IMG/VR virus record: IMGVR_UViG_3300007522_000064
Location: 1-23,656 of that record
DNA from: a virus
Length of the DNA stretch: 23,656 nt
Reading direction: 5' to 3' (one strand)
Positions 4,476 through 20,751 of this stretch are shown here, one piece after another. How positions within the stretch are numbered: position 1 is the stretch's first letter; the number at the start of each line of letters is the position of its first letter. The notes beneath the pieces were generated by a model. The model worked only from the letters and a program-made list of their open reading frames with translations, had not been told where the DNA came from and did no database searches. A program made the position numbers and the translations under genes.

Positions 4476-4918
4476 TGACATTAATCAACGCAAAAACGGA
4501 TCACTACTTGAACTTTATCAAGGATGATCCAGTGCGTCCGCACTTGCAAATGGTGTGGCGTATTAGCAACGGTCGTGAAGTGTATGCTCTTGAAGATGAA
4601 GAAGGCGAACTACGAGCAATGATTTGTGTTGCGTATACGAAAGAAGTGCCCAAGGACGAAGGTGAGTTAGATCGGTTGAGTTGTGACGACGGTTACATTG
4701 CAGTCTTCTACACGGTGTGGAGTTATGCCAAAGGTGCAGGACGTGATATGGTGCTAACTGTAGCCAAGCATATCAAAGAAACTAAGCCAGTTAAGCGTTA
4801 TGTAACACTAAGCCCGCAAACTGAAATGGCTCGTAAGTTCCATTTAGCAAACGGTGCAACAGTACTACAAGTTAACTCAATGTCAGTAAACTATGAATAT
4901 GCTATGGAGTTACTATGA
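4475..4918 (+). CDS. GNAT-like acetyltransferase fold protein
   Basis: A 147-residue protein whose C-terminal half has the order expected of a GNAT fold: FYTVWSYAKGAGRDMVLTV (compare the acyl-CoA-binding loop), then VTLSPQTEMARKFHLANGA (the late strand and helix). Substrate unknown. GNAT proteins move acetyl groups from acetyl-CoA, but the acyl-CoA loop here is not a textbook match, so catalysis is uncertain. It is coupled to both neighbours by 1- and 4-base overlaps. Confidence 0.7.
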   Translation: MTLINAKTDHYLNFIKDDPVRPHLQMVWRISNGREVYALEDEEGELRAMICVAYTKEVPKDEGELDRLSCDDGYIAVFYTVWSYAKGAGRDMVLTVAKHIKETKPVKRYVTLSPQTEMARKFHLANGATVLQVNSMSVNYEYAMELL

Positions 4919-5166
4919 CATTACCTTATGAACGCTATCATGCTGTAACACGAACTGAGCAGTTCTTAAAAGAACTGTGCGATCCTAAGAAAACGCCCCG
5001 TGTACCTAAAGATATAAGACAGCAAGCATACCATTGCTTACATCACTATCCTAGCAAGCAGAATATGGACGTTGCAGCAACATTGTCGCCCACTGTGTTT
5101 GAAACAAACGATCCTATAGATAAATTAACATTACTAATTTTAGATTACGAAGAAGGTAGAAAATGA
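4915..5166 (+). CDS. BPSL0761 family protein
   Basis: An 83-residue protein. The N-terminal half (PYERYHAVTRTEQFLKEL, DPKKTPRVPKDIRQQA, LHHYPS) fits the BPSL0761 family, small proteins of unknown function common in proteobacteria and in some phages. Predicted mostly helical. The start overlaps the previous stop (ATGA) and the stop overlaps the next ATG. Confidence 0.8.
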   Translation: MTLPYERYHAVTRTEQFLKELCDPKKTPRVPKDIRQQAYHCLHHYPSKQNMDVAATLSPTVFETNDPIDKLTLLILDYEEGRK

Positions 5167-5660
5167 TTACACTTAAAGAATGGATGGAAATAGTTGATTA
5201 CCGGATCACTGAAGGCAGTATCTATAATCTCTACAGTCCTAATGCATATGCACTCAGCTCCTGGAATGGCGAGCATGATGGTTACAGTATGGAAATCATC
5301 TTTGATAATAAAACACACGTTGTATACTGTGTAGAAGCCTGCGACTTTAAGAATAACCGTGCGTATCGTGTGGTCAATCCTGAATACACAGGAGTTGATA
5401 AATTCGCGCAGGCGTGGGATGGTACTAACTGGATTGACCTAGATGTTGATGATGACTTTATCCAAAAGGCGTTAGCTATCAAGGCTGGTGAAGATTACGA
5501 CACTCGTGTTATTGTTCCAATTGAAATTCCTGATGCAGATCTGTTAGTCTACATGAAAATTGCACACGAACGTGATATTACATTTAACGAACTTGTAGAG
5601 ACTGCACTTAGGGAAGCAATTGAAAAATATTGTATAAACGATATGCCTGCACCTAGTTGA
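5163..5660 (+). CDS. Conserved phage hypothetical protein with RHH-like C-terminus
   Basis: A 165-residue protein. The N-terminal part (LKEWMEIVDYRITEGS, SWNGEHDGYSMEIIFD) is a block I recognise from tailed-phage hypotheticals. The C-terminal part, after DDDFIQKALAIKAGEDYDT, is a strand followed by two helices (DADLLVYMKIAHERDITF, NELVETALREAIEKY), which resembles a ribbon-helix-helix or small accessory DNA-binding fold. That reading is inference. Last gene of the 4044 operon before a 115-base gap. Confidence 0.8.
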   Translation: MITLKEWMEIVDYRITEGSIYNLYSPNAYALSSWNGEHDGYSMEIIFDNKTHVVYCVEACDFKNNRAYRVVNPEYTGVDKFAQAWDGTNWIDLDVDDDFIQKALAIKAGEDYDTRVIVPIEIPDADLLVYMKIAHERDITFNELVETALREAIEKYCINDMPAPS

Positions 5661-12542: not shown

Positions 12543-12572
12543 TTCCTCAGTAGCTCAGTTGGTAGAGCGCAC
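12543..12572 (+). pseudogene. 5' half of a tRNA gene
   Basis: TTCCTCAGTAGCTCAG followed by TTGGTAGAGC is a textbook acceptor 5' strand plus D-arm, but the sequence turns A/T-rich (12573-12589) before an anticodon arm, and a complete tRNA starts at 12590. No matching 3' half (expected CTGAGGA) was found. Confidence 0.6.
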
Positions 12573-12589
12573 CATAAATTTAGTTTTAT

Positions 12590-12672
12590 TCCACGAGAGC
12601 CGCCGGGTGTGGCAGCAGACTGTTAATCTGTGTCGAAAGACTAGCTGGGTTCGAGTCCTAGTCGTGGAGCCC
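12590..12672 (+). tRNA. tRNA-Asn(GTT) with long variable arm
   Basis: Acceptor TCCACGA/TCGTGGA, anticodon arm GCAGA-CTGTTAA-TCTGT (anticodon GTT at 12622-12624), T-arm CTGGG-TTCGAGT-CCTAG and discriminator G as in Asn tRNAs. The variable region is long, with a hairpin GTC-GAAA-GAC (12632-12641), normally a mark of Leu/Ser/Tyr tRNAs. The last three bases are CCC, not CCA. Confidence 0.85.
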
Positions 12673-12687
12673 TTGATAAATATCTAT

Positions 12688-12768
12688 ATGTATAAATGTA
12701 TAGAATGTAGTAAATCTTTTGCCAGTATTATGGCACTAAGTGGTCACAGTTTAAAGACCCGTTGGTAG
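12688..12768 (+). pseudogene. Zinc-finger fragment, endonuclease remnant
   Basis: A 26-residue frame, MYKCIECSKSFASIMALSGH followed by SLKTRW, has the C-x2-C...F...L-x2-H pattern seen at the N-terminus of the 14134 endonuclease (C4, C7, H20). It sits between two tRNA genes and stops right after the finger. It is probably the scar of a tRNA-associated homing endonuclease gene. Confidence 0.5.
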
Positions 12769-12807
12769 TTTGGAAACGAACAGAACTGACGGAGATGAAG
12801 TTAATAT

Positions 12808-12899
12808 AGTGAGTTGGATGAGAGGTTTAAATCAGCACCCTGCTAAGGTGCAGTTCGTAGTAATATGGGCCGTGGGTTCAAATCCCACACTCACTGCCA
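12808..12899 (+). tRNA. tRNA-Ser(GCT)
   Basis: Acceptor AGTGAGT/ACTCACT, anticodon arm GCACC-CTGCTAA-GGTGC (GCT at 12842-12844), long variable arm as expected for Ser, T-arm GTGGG-TTCAAAT-CCCAC, discriminator G and encoded CCA. Confidence 0.95.
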
Positions 12900-12940
12900 G
12901 CCGTAAGGGTCACAGGGTTCGACTCCCTGACGCTCCGCCA
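12900..12940 (+). pseudogene. 3' half of a tRNA gene
   Basis: Directly after the CCA of tRNA-Ser(GCT) comes a variable loop, T-arm CAGGG-TTCGACT-CCCTG, acceptor 3' strand ACGCTCC, discriminator G and CCA, with no 5' half. This looks like a deletion fusing two tRNA genes. Confidence 0.7.
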
Positions 12941-13030: not shown

Positions 13031-13105
13031 GGTCTTAAAGTGTTCACGGACGCACACGACACTGTCACTGTCGAAGAAGGGGATCGTTACCCCTTAAGAC
13101 CGCCA
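13031..13105 (+). tRNA. tRNA-Asp(GTC)
   Basis: Acceptor GGTCTTA/TAAGACC, D stem GTGT/GCAC, anticodon arm CGACA-CTGTCAC-TGTCG (GTC at 13064-13066), T stem AGGGG/CCCCT, G and CCA. The T-loop ATCGTTA departs from the usual TTCxAxx. Confidence 0.9.
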
Positions 13106-14058: not shown

Positions 14059-14097
14059 GGAAGTTTGGCTGAGTCCGGTTTATGGCACTAGTCTTGA
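14059..14097 (+). pseudogene. 5' half of a tRNA-Ser gene cut after the anticodon
   Basis: GGAAGTT, a Ser-type D region (TGGCTGAGTCCGG), anticodon stem CTAGT and loop CTTGA, ending exactly after the anticodon TGA (14095-14097). The zinc-finger endonuclease gene begins 36 bases later. GGAAGTT pairs 7 of 7 with the acceptor 3' strand AGCTTCC at 14849-14855. Confidence 0.75.
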
Positions 14098-14133
14098 TTT
14101 ATAGATTTGATAAATAATGTATAGGAGAAATAT

Positions 14134-14781
14134 ATGTTATTTTGCAAACACTGTAATAGAGAGTTCAAAAACGCTGGGGGTCTTGGATCACATGAACCTT
14201 TCTGTAAATTAAACAAAGACAGAGTTCAGAGAACAAGATCGCCTTTAGCTGGTGCTAAAAAAGGATGCATACCCTGGAATAGAGATCAAACCGCCGAAAC
14301 AGATAGTAGAATTAAAAGCGGTGAAGACCACTTGTTATTTGGCGTTAAATTTGGTGCATCCAAAACTGGTTATCACACCCAAGAAGCTAAAGACAAATTA
14401 TCGATTATTGCAAAAAACCGTGGCTTGGGTGGCTATGTAAAAGGCTCCGGGCGTGGTAAAAAAGGATGGTATAAAAATATATTCTGTGATTCCAGTTGGG
14501 AACTAGCATATGTAATATACACTTTGGACCACGGAAAATCCATTGAAAAAAACGAGCAATTTAGAACATACGATTATGAAGGCGTTGTAAAAAAATATCT
14601 GCCAGACTTTATAGTTGATAATAAAATTATAGAAATAAAAGGGTATAGGTCCCCACAGTGGGAAGCCAAGTTGAAATGTAACCCTGATATAGATGTTCTA
14701 TATAAAGAAGAAATGAAGCCAATTCTTGAATATGTAATCCAAAAACATGGCAAAGATTTTATAAAGTTATACGGAGGATAG
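14134..14781 (+). CDS. Zinc-finger / NUMOD3-like / PD-(D/E)XK homing endonuclease
   Basis: A 215-residue protein. Residues 1-25 form a finger (C4, C7, H20, C24). GYHTQEAKDKLSIIAKNRG (79-97) resembles the NUMOD3 DNA-binding motif. The C-terminal domain has the PD-(D/E)XK order: E123 in SSWELAYVIY, D158 in YLPDFIVDN, E167 and K169 in IIEIKGY. It would cut a tRNA-less allele and spread by repair, as mobile genes in phages do. It lies between the severed 5' half of tRNA-Ser(TGA) and a complete-looking copy whose 5' end overlaps its stop codon (TAG 14779-14781). Family assignment is firm; activity and target are inferred. Confidence 0.85.
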   Translation: MLFCKHCNREFKNAGGLGSHEPFCKLNKDRVQRTRSPLAGAKKGCIPWNRDQTAETDSRIKSGEDHLLFGVKFGASKTGYHTQEAKDKLSIIAKNRGLGGYVKGSGRGKKGWYKNIFCDSSWELAYVIYTLDHGKSIEKNEQFRTYDYEGVVKKYLPDFIVDNKIIEIKGYRSPQWEAKLKCNPDIDVLYKEEMKPILEYVIQKHGKDFIKLYGG

Positions 14782-14859
14782 GGGCGCAGGGCGCTGAGCG
14801 GTCTTGAAAACCGTCCCATCTAGGAATAGGTGAGAGTTCGAATCTCTCAGCTTCCGCCA
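14773..14859 (+). tRNA. tRNA-Ser(TGA), possibly reconstituted
   Basis: Anticodon arm GCGGT-CTTGAAA-ACCGT (TGA at 14805-14807), long variable arm, T-arm GAGAG-TTCGAAT-CTCTC, discriminator G and CCA. The 5' strand GGAGGAT, which includes the endonuclease stop codon, pairs 6 of 7 with AGCTTCC, and the D-arm is poor. Function of this copy is uncertain. Confidence 0.8.
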
Positions 14860-14870
14860 AAAATACTAGT

Positions 14871-14936
14871 TATTATAAAGCACTTTCTATCCGAAAGAAG
14901 ACATGTGGGTTCATCCATGAAAATTGCTTTATAATA
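14871..14936 (+). ncRNA. Long-stem inter-tRNA element B
   Basis: TATTATAAAGCA (14871-14882) is the perfect reverse complement of TGCTTTATAATA (14925-14936). Inside are CTTTC-TATCC-GAAAG and a CATG-flanked hairpin. No tRNA features. Confidence 0.5.
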
Positions 14937-14987: not shown

Positions 14988-14988
14988 C

Positions 14989-15075
14989 GGAAGTTGCCCA
15001 CTACAGCGGTCTGTAAAACCGTCCCTAAAGGTAGTGAAGTCAAGGCACGTGGAGCGTTACCATCAACTTCCACCA
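14989..15075 (+). tRNA. tRNA-Tyr(GTA)-like gene lacking a D-arm
   Basis: Acceptor GGAAGTT/AACTTCC (7 perfect pairs), discriminator A, CCA, and anticodon arm GCGGT-CTGTAAA-ACCGT (GTA at 15013-15015). Only 17 bases separate acceptor and anticodon, about nine short, so there is no room for a normal D-arm. Instead CACTAC (14999-15004) pairs with GTAGTG (15031-15036) around the anticodon arm. The T region (GTGG-AGCGTTA-CCAT) is atypical. Confidence 0.55.
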
Positions 15076-15077
15076 AT

Positions 15078-15194
15078 TTTGCGCTTTAGTGTAACGGCAA
15101 CACATCCCCGAATGGGCTGCTTAAACGGTTCGATTCCGTTGTATGTTGGACAAGCATCATTGAAGTATAGGGTTCGACTCCCTGGCGCAAATTT
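15078..15194 (+). tRNA. Hybrid tRNA-like locus with two T-arms
   Basis: TTTGCGC/GCGCAAA closes the locus; D-arm GTGT-AACGGCA-ACAC follows the 5' strand. Two complete T-arms are present: AACGG-TTCGATT-CCGTT (15124-15140) and TAGGG-TTCGACT-CCCTG (15168-15184). No anticodon loop with U33 is clear and there is no CCA. Probably a fusion of two tRNA genes, or a tRNA with an insert. Confidence 0.45.
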
Positions 15195-15596: not shown

Positions 15597-15634
15597 TAAT
15601 GTAAAGCGGAGTTCGATTCTCCGTAGCGTTACCA
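15597..15634 (+). pseudogene. 3' half of a tRNA gene
   Basis: T-arm CGGAG-TTCGATT-CTCCG, acceptor 3' strand TAGCGTT, A and CCA, with no D or anticodon arm before it. Its last five bases begin the left arm of element C. Confidence 0.65.
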
Positions 15635-15716
15635 TATATAAACACATTTGATTCCCCTGTAGCTACCTTTGGGAGTTCGAAAGAATCAACGTAGCCAAAT
15701 GTGTTTATATATGGTA
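15630..15716 (+). ncRNA. Long-stem inter-tRNA element C (21-bp inverted repeat)
   Basis: Bases 15630-15650 are the perfect 21-base reverse complement of 15696-15716. The 45-base interior holds GCTAC/GTAGC. The left arm includes the TACCA end of the preceding tRNA fragment. The right arm ends in ATATGGTA, repeated after elements E and D. Confidence 0.65.
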
Positions 15717-15766
15717 TTATGAAGGAGTAATTACCTTCACCATATTCGGAAGTCATGACTCCGAAG
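15717..15766 (+). other. Two small hairpins between tRNA-like units
   Basis: GAAGG/CCTTC (15721-15738) and a near-perfect palindrome TTCGG-AGTC/GACT-CCGAA (15746-15764, one bulged A). No coding sequence. Confidence 0.4.
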
Positions 15767-15846: not shown

Positions 15847-15926
15847 CATATTGAAACACATTAGAACACGCCCCTAGTACCCAGCATGTCGAATCAATGG
15901 CGGAATGTTGAGTGTATTTCAATATG
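15847..15926 (+). ncRNA. Long-stem inter-tRNA element E
   Basis: CATATTGAAA (15847-15856) pairs with TTTCAATATG (15917-15926); after one mismatch five more pairs form. It is followed by ATATGGTAT-type sequence (15922-15930), as after elements C and D. Confidence 0.5.
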
Positions 15927-17713: not shown

Positions 17714-17741
17714 ATTGCGTAAAGGAAAAATAAAGTTTTAT

Positions 17742-17776
17742 GTATCGCTAGAGTAATGGCAGCACCTTAGTGTGCC
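17742..17776 (+). pseudogene. 5' half of a split tRNA gene, possible Gly(GCC)
   Basis: GTATCGC pairs 7 of 7 (two wobbles) with GCGGTAT at 18624-18630. A D-arm-like GAGT-AATGGCA-GCAC and TTAGT-GT-GCC follow, so the break lies just after a putative GCC anticodon (17774-17776), at the same place as in the tRNA-Ser at 14097. Confidence 0.5.
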
Positions 17777-17780
17777 TCTC

Positions 17781-18596
17781 TTAGAGTGTGCCCCGCAAGT
17801 CCGTAGTGAAACTAGGCATCACCGCGAACTCCAAATCCGCTATTTTCCGTTCAAATCGGAACGGACTTGCAGGGTACATTTTATCAAACTCTTCTATTTT
17901 TGCCATGAGATCAAGCAACGACAATGAACATTGCGTGTTTTTGCTTTGATTTGCTACATGTTGCATTAGTTGACAATTAGCAGGATGAGATATGATACAG
18001 GGATCGACATTATTTTTAAAACCGTGCGTTACGGAATACATATGATCTCTAGAAATACCGTTAATATTTTTAATCCCTTTTCTGGAACCAGGAGTTGAGT
18101 ACCAGCCATGATTTTGAATTAATCCAGAAGCAGTTTGAAACCAATCTGGATATGAACTAATACCAAAATTAAACCTACATTGGTAAGAATATTGTTTTTT
18201 GGTATCAATAATATCGGGATGAATTGTTTTTACAGTTTTAGAATACCAAGTTTTTCCAGTAAACTTACATTTACATAGATATATACGAGTATATTCACCT
18301 AAATATTCTACTGAAACTTTTTCATATTTGGCTAATAGCGTAGTTCTAATTTTTAGTTTAGTGCTATCGGATAGTATTCTACCAGTATTAAGATGGCTAG
18401 CCCGACATGACTTACAGCAGAATTTAGGATTGAGTGTATTTGTTTTACAATACAAACATTTTTTAATTTGTCGTTTTGTTGAATGCTTGGAAGAGCAAGC
18501 AACGGAACAAAATTTTCGTATGCAGTTTTTATTTGTCCTCAGAGGGAAAAACATTGATTGACATTGATTACATTTAAACATATGTTTATTTATCAT
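17781..18596 (-). CDS. HNH homing endonuclease with cysteine-pair fingers
   Basis: A 271-residue protein on the opposite strand to its neighbours. Residues 1-65 carry several CxxC pairs (C9/C12, C47/C50, C61/C64), suggesting zinc fingers. The HNH domain is at about 178-225: NGISRDHMYSVTHGF (H185), HPANCQLM (H204, N207) and NQSKNTQCS. This layout is typical of phage HNH homing endonucleases, which nick or cut DNA and spread by repair. ATG at 18596 is chosen because the longer frame would extend into a tRNA half. The gene lies between the two halves of one tRNA gene. Confidence 0.9.
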   Translation of the reverse strand: MINKHMFKCNQCQSMFFPLRTNKNCIRKFCSVACSSKHSTKRQIKKCLYCKTNTLNPKFCCKSCRASHLNTGRILSDSTKLKIRTTLLAKYEKVSVEYLGEYTRIYLCKCKFTGKTWYSKTVKTIHPDIIDTKKQYSYQCRFNFGISSYPDWFQTASGLIQNHGWYSTPGSRKGIKNINGISRDHMYSVTHGFKNNVDPCIISHPANCQLMQHVANQSKNTQCSLSLLDLMAKIEEFDKMYPASPFRFERKIADLEFAVMPSFTTDLRGTL

Positions 18597-18634
18597 TTCG
18601 TTGGGTCGGGGTTCGAGTCCCTGGCGGTATGCCA
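18597..18634 (+). pseudogene. 3' half of the tRNA gene split by the HNH gene
   Basis: Variable region, T-arm CGGGG-TTCGAGT-CCCTG (18607-18623), acceptor strand GCGGTAT, G and CCA. No anticodon stem matching the 5' half is visible, so something was lost or replaced. Confidence 0.65.
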
Positions 18635-19734: not shown

Positions 19735-20751
19735 ATGCGTAAACTAGCTTCTATTCGTAAAATTGATACTATTCGCCCAATTGAAGGTGCGGATGCTATT
19801 GAATGTGCAGTTATTGGTGGTTGGACTGTGGTTGTTAAGAAAGGCGAATTTGCCGCTGGCGACCTAGCAGTCTATTGTGAAATTGATTCATGGATTCCGC
19901 ATGCGCTAGCACCATTCCTCAGCAAAGGCAACGAGCCGCGAGTGTATGACGGTATTGCAGGCGAACGCTTGCGTACTATTAGACTGCGTGGACAACTATC
20001 GCAAGGATTGTTGCTGCCAGCAAACATCGGCGGTATTTGTGTTCTTGGTCTTGAAGTAGGAATGGATGTTTCTGCTATCCTTAGTATCACCAAGTATGAA
20101 GCTCCTATTCCTGCATGTCTTGCTGGTGAAGTTAAAGGTATGTTTCCAAGTTGGCTTCAAAAGACTGATCAAGAACGTATTCAGAATCTAAAGGAAGAAC
20201 TTGCATACTGGGCTAAAGAACAGCATGCTTGGGAAATTACTGAAAAGCTAGACGGTGCGTCAATGACAGCTTACTTGCGTGATGGAGAGTTTGGAGTTTG
20301 TTCACGTAATCTTGATCTCAAGCCAAGCGAAACTAACAGCCTGTGGAAAGTTGCAGTTGCCAATGATCTAGAATTAAAACTTCGTCGTGCTAATCGTAAT
20401 ATTGCATTGCAAGGTGAACTGATTGGAGAAGGTATTCAAGGTAATCCATATAAGAGCAAAGGACAAGATTTTTTCTTGTTTGACATCTACAATATTGATA
20501 CCAACAAGTACTTTACTCCTGCAGAACGAAAAGCATTCGTTGATGAGTTTGATATTAAACATGTGCCTGTTCTTGGAACCCTCACAATGGATGAGTCAAC
20601 TACCATTGCTGATCTGCTAATGTCTGCAGAAGGTAAGTCAGTTATGGGAATGGTTGGTTGTGAACGAGAAGGACTTGTGTTTAAGATTCTAGATATGCAA
20701 TGTTCGTTCAAAGCAATTTCTAATAAGTTCTTATTGAAAGGCGGTAATTAA
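19735..20751 (+). CDS. ATP-dependent RNA ligase (DRB0094/Rnl5-like)
   Basis: A 338-residue nucleotidyltransferase. Residues 1-120 form an OB-like N-terminal domain (RKLASIRKIDTIRPIEGADA, GDLAVYCEIDSWIP), as in the DRB0094 RNA ligase of Deinococcus. Motif I is EKLDGAS with the AMP-accepting Lys171; NIALQGELIG and FFLFDIYNI fit motifs III/IIIa; EGLVFK (312-317) is motif IV and SFKAIS (324-329) motif V. DRB0094 seals nicked RNA. Next to a tRNA array it could repair tRNAs cut by host anticodon nucleases, as T4 Rnl1 does; this role is inference. No polynucleotide kinase gene is visible here. Confidence 0.9.
   Translation: MRKLASIRKIDTIRPIEGADAIECAVIGGWTVVVKKGEFAAGDLAVYCEIDSWIPHALAPFLSKGNEPRVYDGIAGERLRTIRLRGQLSQGLLLPANIGGICVLGLEVGMDVSAILSITKYEAPIPACLAGEVKGMFPSWLQKTDQERIQNLKEELAYWAKEQHAWEITEKLDGASMTAYLRDGEFGVCSRNLDLKPSETNSLWKVAVANDLELKLRRANRNIALQGELIGEGIQGNPYKSKGQDFFLFDIYNIDTNKYFTPAERKAFVDEFDIKHVPVLGTLTMDESTTIADLLMSAEGKSVMGMVGCEREGLVFKILDMQCSFKAISNKFLLKGGN

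Follow-up and report, generated by a model that had tools for sequence, protein, structure and literature searches.

A homing endonuclease gene inserted in a phage tRNA-Ser gene beside a divergent, complete tRNA-Ser: a probable natural "home-and-rescue" arrangement

Homing endonucleases usually spare the gene that they target, being placed between genes or within a self-splicing intron or intein. Two precedents relevant to this work are already known, namely endonuclease genes that carry a divergent copy and phage endonucleases that act in tRNA arrays. The former are the mORFs of fungal mitochondria (in Allomyces atp6 and in Glomus atp6, atp9, cox2, and nad3), where the endonuclease gene comes with a divergent version of the part that it severs from its target (PMC3630166). 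The latter are exemplified by SegB of phages T4 and T6, which is a free-standing endonuclease in a tRNA array that cuts within tRNA genes (PMC13096335 and PMC2988022) and has a predicted late promoter in T4 (PMC2988022). Cutting an essential gene while supplying a restoring copy is also the principle of synthetic home-and-rescue gene drives, engineered with Cas9 in Drosophila (PMC7968924). Finally, unusual serine-type cloverleaves with non-standard arms have been described in allo-tRNAs and tRNA-Sec (PMC7590224).

The locus described here lies in an array of ~20 tRNA genes within a 23.7-kb virus record, the whole of which was analyzed and is referred to below as the window. Its layout, in which a tRNA-Ser 5' half is followed 36 bases on by an endonuclease gene with a second tRNA-Ser behind it, had been recognized in a first-pass annotation, the coordinates of which we confirmed (Table 1). 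As in mORFs, the endonuclease gene sits inside its target gene, a divergent copy of the missing part adjoins it, and the displaced native part is kept as a remnant: a 5' half for tRNA-Ser and two halves for tRNA-Trp in the window, and 3' remnants in two related loci (L022 and L034). Unlike mORFs, which concern mitochondrial protein-coding genes and only their 3' segments, the targets here are phage tRNA genes of several isotypes, the replacement at the 3' end of the endonuclease gene is usually complete, and at least two endonuclease families are involved. With SegB, the element shares being a phage homing endonuclease in a tRNA array with a late-promoter-like motif. However, SegB is a GIY-YIG enzyme encoded between tRNA genes, and the accessible portions of the SegB reports mention neither an orphan half nor a replacement tRNA. 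In contrast to the home-and-rescue drive, the window element is natural and endonuclease-based, and its copy is presumably resistant. We found no tRNA version with a complete replacement gene in the open-access PMC literature, subscription papers lying outside the search.

Table 1. Coordinates of the endonuclease genes, native tRNA halves, and replacement tRNAs in the window
Feature	Position	Strand	Basis
Orphan native 5' half of tRNA-Asn	12543..12571	+	29 nt identical to intact tRNA-Asn of L107
Complete replacement tRNA-Asn, no endonuclease left in place	12590..12671	+	ARAGORN
Orphan native 5' half of tRNA-Ser(UGA), cut after A36	14059..14097	+	36-37/39 identical to uninterrupted tRNA-Ser genes in 12 contigs
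T4-late-promoter-like GATAAATA (candidate promoter)	14109..14116	+	Lies between junction and endonuclease gene
Homing-endonuclease gene, 215 aa	14134..14781	+	Conserved motifs in 33 relatives; PHROG endonuclease families; structure model
Complete replacement tRNA-Ser(UGA), 5-bp/3-nt D-arm	14773..14859	+	ARAGORN; subgroup covariation; segment comparison
Orphan native 5' half of tRNA-Trp	17741..17766	+	Flank 99.6% identical over 471 nt to L104 (intact tRNA-Trp)
Second, unrelated putative endonuclease (phrog_23051)	17781..18593	-	3' end antisense across replacement tRNA-Trp
Complete replacement tRNA-Trp(CCA)	17797..17870	+	ARAGORN; absent from L104
Orphan native 3' half of tRNA-Trp	18605..18634	+	Flank 98.1% identical to L104

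The orphan 5' half reads GGAAGTTTGGCTGAGTCCGGTTTATGGCACTAGTCTTGA, its last base being A36 of the anticodon TGA. A 36-nt spacer with AGGAG at position 14124 separates it from the ATG of the endonuclease gene, whose TAG stop codon (14779-14781) falls within the 5' end of the complete tRNA-Ser(TGA). Scanning IMG/VR with the exact 24-mer TCCGGTTTATGGCACTAGTCTTGA returned 14 contigs, two from the window's own lineage and 12 with an uninterrupted tRNA-Ser, such as GGAAGTGTGGCCGAGTCCGGTTTATGGCACTAGTCTTGA-AAACTAGCG...GTGAGTTCGAATCTCACCGCTTCCGCCA. These 12 contigs are other phages rather than the window lineage with its site empty, and their uninterrupted genes combine an orphan-type 5' half with a complementary anticodon stem. 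An empty-site 5' half resembling 14773-14810, named in the first-pass annotation as the observation that would speak against its proposal, was looked for; the empty-site genes match 14059-14097 instead, which identifies the orphan as the native 5' half. The nearest relatives (L105, L107, and L109, with ~97% DNA identity to the window) did not include a same-lineage empty allele of the Ser insertion, since they have a different, also unusual tRNA-Ser(UGA), with no endonuclease at the site. Empty alleles occur elsewhere, in the 12 contigs for this site-specific insertion and in a pair of phages for that of a homolog from PhaxI (see below). Because the exact 24-mer of the orphan is found in 12 intact tRNA genes and dozens of relatives are laid out in the same way, this arrangement is more than chance.

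The endonuclease has an N-terminal Cys/His motif and a C-terminal PD-(D/E)XK nuclease. In the alignment of 33 relatives, SSWELA, Y.PDF, and E.KG are invariant, which gives the catalytic pattern E...PD...ExK, and the protein matches PHROG endonuclease families; domain and PHROG searches detected no GIY-YIG catalytic domain. A structure model (pLDDT 82) has weak matches to PD-(D/E)XK nucleases, the best PDB match being Bax1 with an E of 0.04 and a low TM-score, and a PDB sequence search returned nothing useful. As to the domains originally proposed, alignments clearly show the nuclease motif (SSWE...PDF...EIKG), but the zinc finger corresponds to a sub-threshold Pfam match only and NUMOD3 was not detected by Pfam. 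We also considered a tRNA-targeting integrative island, which was ruled out since the element has no integrase and replaces the 5' side rather than restoring the tRNA 3' end.

How often this layout recurs was determined by an alignment-based search for endonuclease relatives, from which 80 loci were kept, 54 of them non-redundant at a protein identity of 93%. In genome contigs of bacteria and archaea, only four relatives were found. A recognizable orphan tRNA 5' half lies just upstream in ~35 of the 54 non-redundant relatives, some of these halves being degenerate and assigned by hand. The conserved stretch shared by the 30 Ser-type orphans extends from the D-loop (GG.TT.AA) as far as AGTCTTGA, after which T is present in 29 of them and TT in 27; their junctions were picked by the TTGA motif, and the independent evidence consists of D-loop conservation and the following T only. 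The insertion had been described as lying exactly after the anticodon. While the orphan does end after A36 of TGA in the window, this is incidental, since the Phe, Ile, and Gln junctions follow the bases TGA anywhere in the loop. An ATAAATA motif occurs no more than 45 nt after the junction in 24 of 34 loci (mean 1.5, maximum 6 in shuffles). At the other end of the endonuclease gene, ~37 of the 54 relatives have a complete tRNA, often overlapping the gene. This adjacent tRNA is Ser in ~32 loci, whereas 13 of the other 215 tRNAs are Ser in the scanned subset of loci, and non-Ser replacements match the isotype of the orphan (Phe/Phe in L062, Ile/Ile in L070, and Gln/Gln in L042). In most loci, the same-isotype tRNA starts approximately -5 to +18 nt from the endonuclease end; some relatives (L064, L067, and L069) have no replacement tRNA. 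Behind the replacement tRNAs of L022 and L034 there is a native 3' remnant, the acceptor of which is complementary to the orphan 5' half.

We considered whether endonuclease and replacement tRNA are strictly co-inherited. Their co-variation is weak, with a Mantel r of 0.20 (p=0.047) for the 5' half and 0.17 (p=0.064) for the whole tRNA, and there is one clear swap, L034 and L065 having endonucleases that are 90% identical but different tRNAs. Because of this, the pair is not a rigid unit, and our claim is reduced to adjacency. The orphan of L048 resembles the replacement 5' half of L051 (0.84 versus 0.45 for intact genes), as if one element had overwritten the replacement of another in a serial turnover.

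Occupied and empty alleles can be compared directly at tRNA-Met, where Kuttervirus PhaxI has a distant homolog of the endonuclease (gp006, ~25% identity). Between flanks that are 99.3% and 98.6% identical in ST-W77, 808 nt of PhaxI stand for 43 nt of native tRNA-Met; this insertion holds the endonuclease and a complete, different tRNA-Met, and the native gene persists as a 5' half made up of its first 27 nt. At the same tRNA-Met, CBA120 has an endonuclease annotated as HNH (orf221), and only the 5' half is swapped, the new one being joined to the native 3' half. Both endonucleases overlap the tRNA-Met that they replace, and both records annotate the pieces separately and describe no unit. KKP_3262-type endonucleases, which lie upstream of an intact tRNA-Ser with small D-loop differences only, represent a different arrangement. 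Within the window, a second site is seen at tRNA-Trp, with 839 nt where L104 has 20 nt. Relatives of its putative endonuclease overlap tRNA-Met in GAP32 and Serratia phage BF. For tRNA-Asn, three alleles exist in ~97%-identical relatives: native (L107, ~4883-4959), orphan plus replacement (window, 12543-12671), and another replacement (L109, ~5518-5598).

Other features of this and similar arrays were recorded. In the window, a complete tRNA-Glu-like gene with an odd T-loop precedes an orphan 3' half that has the same sequence as the 3' end of the intact tRNA-Glu of L104 (15518-15634); the remnant of a zinc-finger endonuclease N-terminus (MYKCIECSKSF...) is followed by tRNA-Ser(GCT) and then by an orphan Ser-type 3' half (12690-12940); and a tRNA-like gene has two nested T-arms, possibly another insertion scar (15084-15192). 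Long AT-rich stems around smaller hairpins lie between tRNA genes at 14869-14936 (z -2.8), 15633-15719, and 15849-15925. Elsewhere, a tRNA-Asp(GTC) of a 462-kb phage (L015, LR756500, ~4728-4870) has an insertion of ~70-90 nt between its D-arm and anticodon arm, and permuted tmRNA matches (Rfam RF04321) occur in phage tRNA arrays (L028, 2538-2744; L051, 5451-6036).

Although the tRNA-Ser behind the endonuclease does not fold to a cloverleaf by single-sequence folding, the alignment of its subgroup of seven tRNAs gives a class II cloverleaf consensus. Double changes are seen in 17 of 27 pairs and 95.8% of cells pair, a result matched by none of 500 shuffles, while slid controls collapse. Because this cloverleaf covaries, these replacement tRNAs are very probably functional RNAs. 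The D-arm, which had at first been judged poor, is indeed odd, but its 5-bp stem and 3-nt loop covary in relatives; the acceptor of the window tRNA has one mismatch. In general, the replacement tRNAs keep the anticodon-loop sequence and have a changed D-arm. At the gathering cut-off, Rfam (tRNA-Sec included) misses 14 of 23 endonuclease-adjacent tRNAs versus 30 of 215 others in the same loci (Fisher p=2e-6), a difference that is smaller when the comparison is with the few other tRNA-Ser (p=0.04), and two replacements score as Rfam tRNA-Sec. Non-standard serine-type arms are shared with allo-tRNAs, from which the replacements differ by a normal serine anticodon and, in the subgroup, by the 5-bp/3-nt D-arm. 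Unusual T-loops (ATCGTTA, AGCGTTA, or ATCGTAA, instead of the usual TTCRANN) were seen in Asp, Tyr, Gln, and Phe tRNAs, with examples at 13031-13105 and 14988-15074 in the window, in the tRNA-Gln behind the endonuclease of L042, and at 3504-3579 in L087; they are apparently recurrent in replacement tRNAs.

We consider it probable that these loci result from intron-less homing into a tRNA gene, which brings a divergent complete replacement tRNA, i.e., a natural "home-and-rescue". Most likely, the endonuclease would cut an uninterrupted tRNA-Ser at or near the anticodon loop, at the bases TGA, and recombination repair from a donor would copy in the endonuclease gene together with a complete divergent tRNA-Ser, using the D-loop-to-anticodon stretch as left homology and the T-arm or beyond as right homology. 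The native 5' half would stay as a dead orphan. The native 3' half would disappear, persist downstream of the new tRNA, or become part of it, and the window resembles the last of these outcomes. While the insertion itself would destroy the left junction as a target, the new tRNA would restore the lost function and its altered D-arm would probably protect it from the neighboring endonuclease, the D-arm being the natural guess for immunity because the replacement keeps the anticodon loop and differs in this arm. The promoter-like motif suggests late expression. One of the two options originally offered, a makeshift 5' half carried by the element, was essentially right, as empty sites match the orphan, but too narrow, since relatives carry a complete replacement tRNA. 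We lean, if only slightly, toward a wider generalization, in which unrelated endonuclease families would each cut a tRNA gene and carry a complete same-isotype tRNA, made resistant to the cutter by a redesigned D-arm or T-loop. Such elements would be widespread in large phages and would successively overwrite each other's replacements, odd tRNAs and half-tRNAs being the record of an endonuclease war.

The divergent replacements might instead be kept mainly because they resist host tRNA-cleaving defenses, the endonuclease being a vehicle only. Altered-loop phage tRNAs have been proposed to evade such defenses (PMC10264068), and SegB amplifies tRNA-Tyr against Septu (PMC13096335). We find this unlikely as the main explanation, for the replacements retain the sequence of the anticodon loop and change the D-arm, and defense alone explains neither the orphan halves nor the 3' overlap; it is nevertheless compatible with home-and-rescue and does not exclude it. 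Improbable, too, is a plain endonuclease insertion that inactivated one of two tRNA-Ser genes already lying side by side, without any rescue. Such an event would account for endonucleases that have no replacement (L064 and L067) and for the weak co-variation of the pair, and phage tRNAs may be dispensable. However, it is at odds with the position of the same-isotype tRNA at the endonuclease end in most loci, which holds for Phe, Ile, Gln, and Met as well, and with the PhaxI/ST-W77 and window/L104 pairs, in which the complete tRNA is part of the insert.

The remaining option offered at the outset, that the two true halves are joined at the RNA level, would make this a split tRNA, with the orphan 5' half and the downstream 3' half spliced or ligated and the adjacent 5' half acting as a spacer. 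It was based on acceptor pairing, which had been counted correctly (7 of 7 pairs with the orphan and 6 of 7 within the adjacent tRNA), and a phage RNA ligase gene is present at 19735-20751. The anticodon stem, left out of that count, points the other way, the downstream 3' strand forming 3 of 5 pairs with the orphan and 5 of 5 with the adjacent tRNA. Moreover, in 28 loci with both parts, the window orphan is the only one to pair 7 of 7 with the downstream acceptor, so that the halves are not conserved as a complementary pair; most orphans have no acceptor strand, and each of the 28 downstream tRNAs forms at least 6 of 7 pairs within its own acceptor. Since the downstream tRNA also covaries as a complete cloverleaf and L022 and L034 retain the native 3' half separately, as a remnant, we regard a split tRNA as very improbable. 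Comparison by segment offers another reading of the pairing in the window. The 5' part and variable arm of its tRNA are most like other replacements (19 versus 11 and 15 versus 8), whereas native tRNA-Ser is the slightly better match for the T-arm and acceptor (22 versus 20). In its simplest, suggestive reading, this tRNA would be a chimera, element-like at 14773-14832 and native-like at 14833-14859, produced by a T-arm crossover through which the incoming tRNA acquired the native 3' end. As for a group I or other self-splicing intron with a degenerate core, the anticodon loop is a classic group I intron site in tRNA genes, but we give this virtually no credence because, as had been noted for lack of space, only 36 nt precede the gene and none follow it, the window has no Rfam intron match, and the downstream tRNA is complete.

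Taken together, these findings describe a homing endonuclease whose target gene is truly destroyed and which has a divergent complete copy of it beside the cutter, the logic of synthetic home-and-rescue drives. Natural home-and-rescue would explain why the tRNA arrays of large phages contain half-genes and tRNAs with strange D-arms or T-loops that standard tools miss, and it predicts that each replacement tRNA should resist the adjoining endonuclease. The replacements also constitute a set of naturally minimized, probably functional tRNA-Ser cloverleaves.
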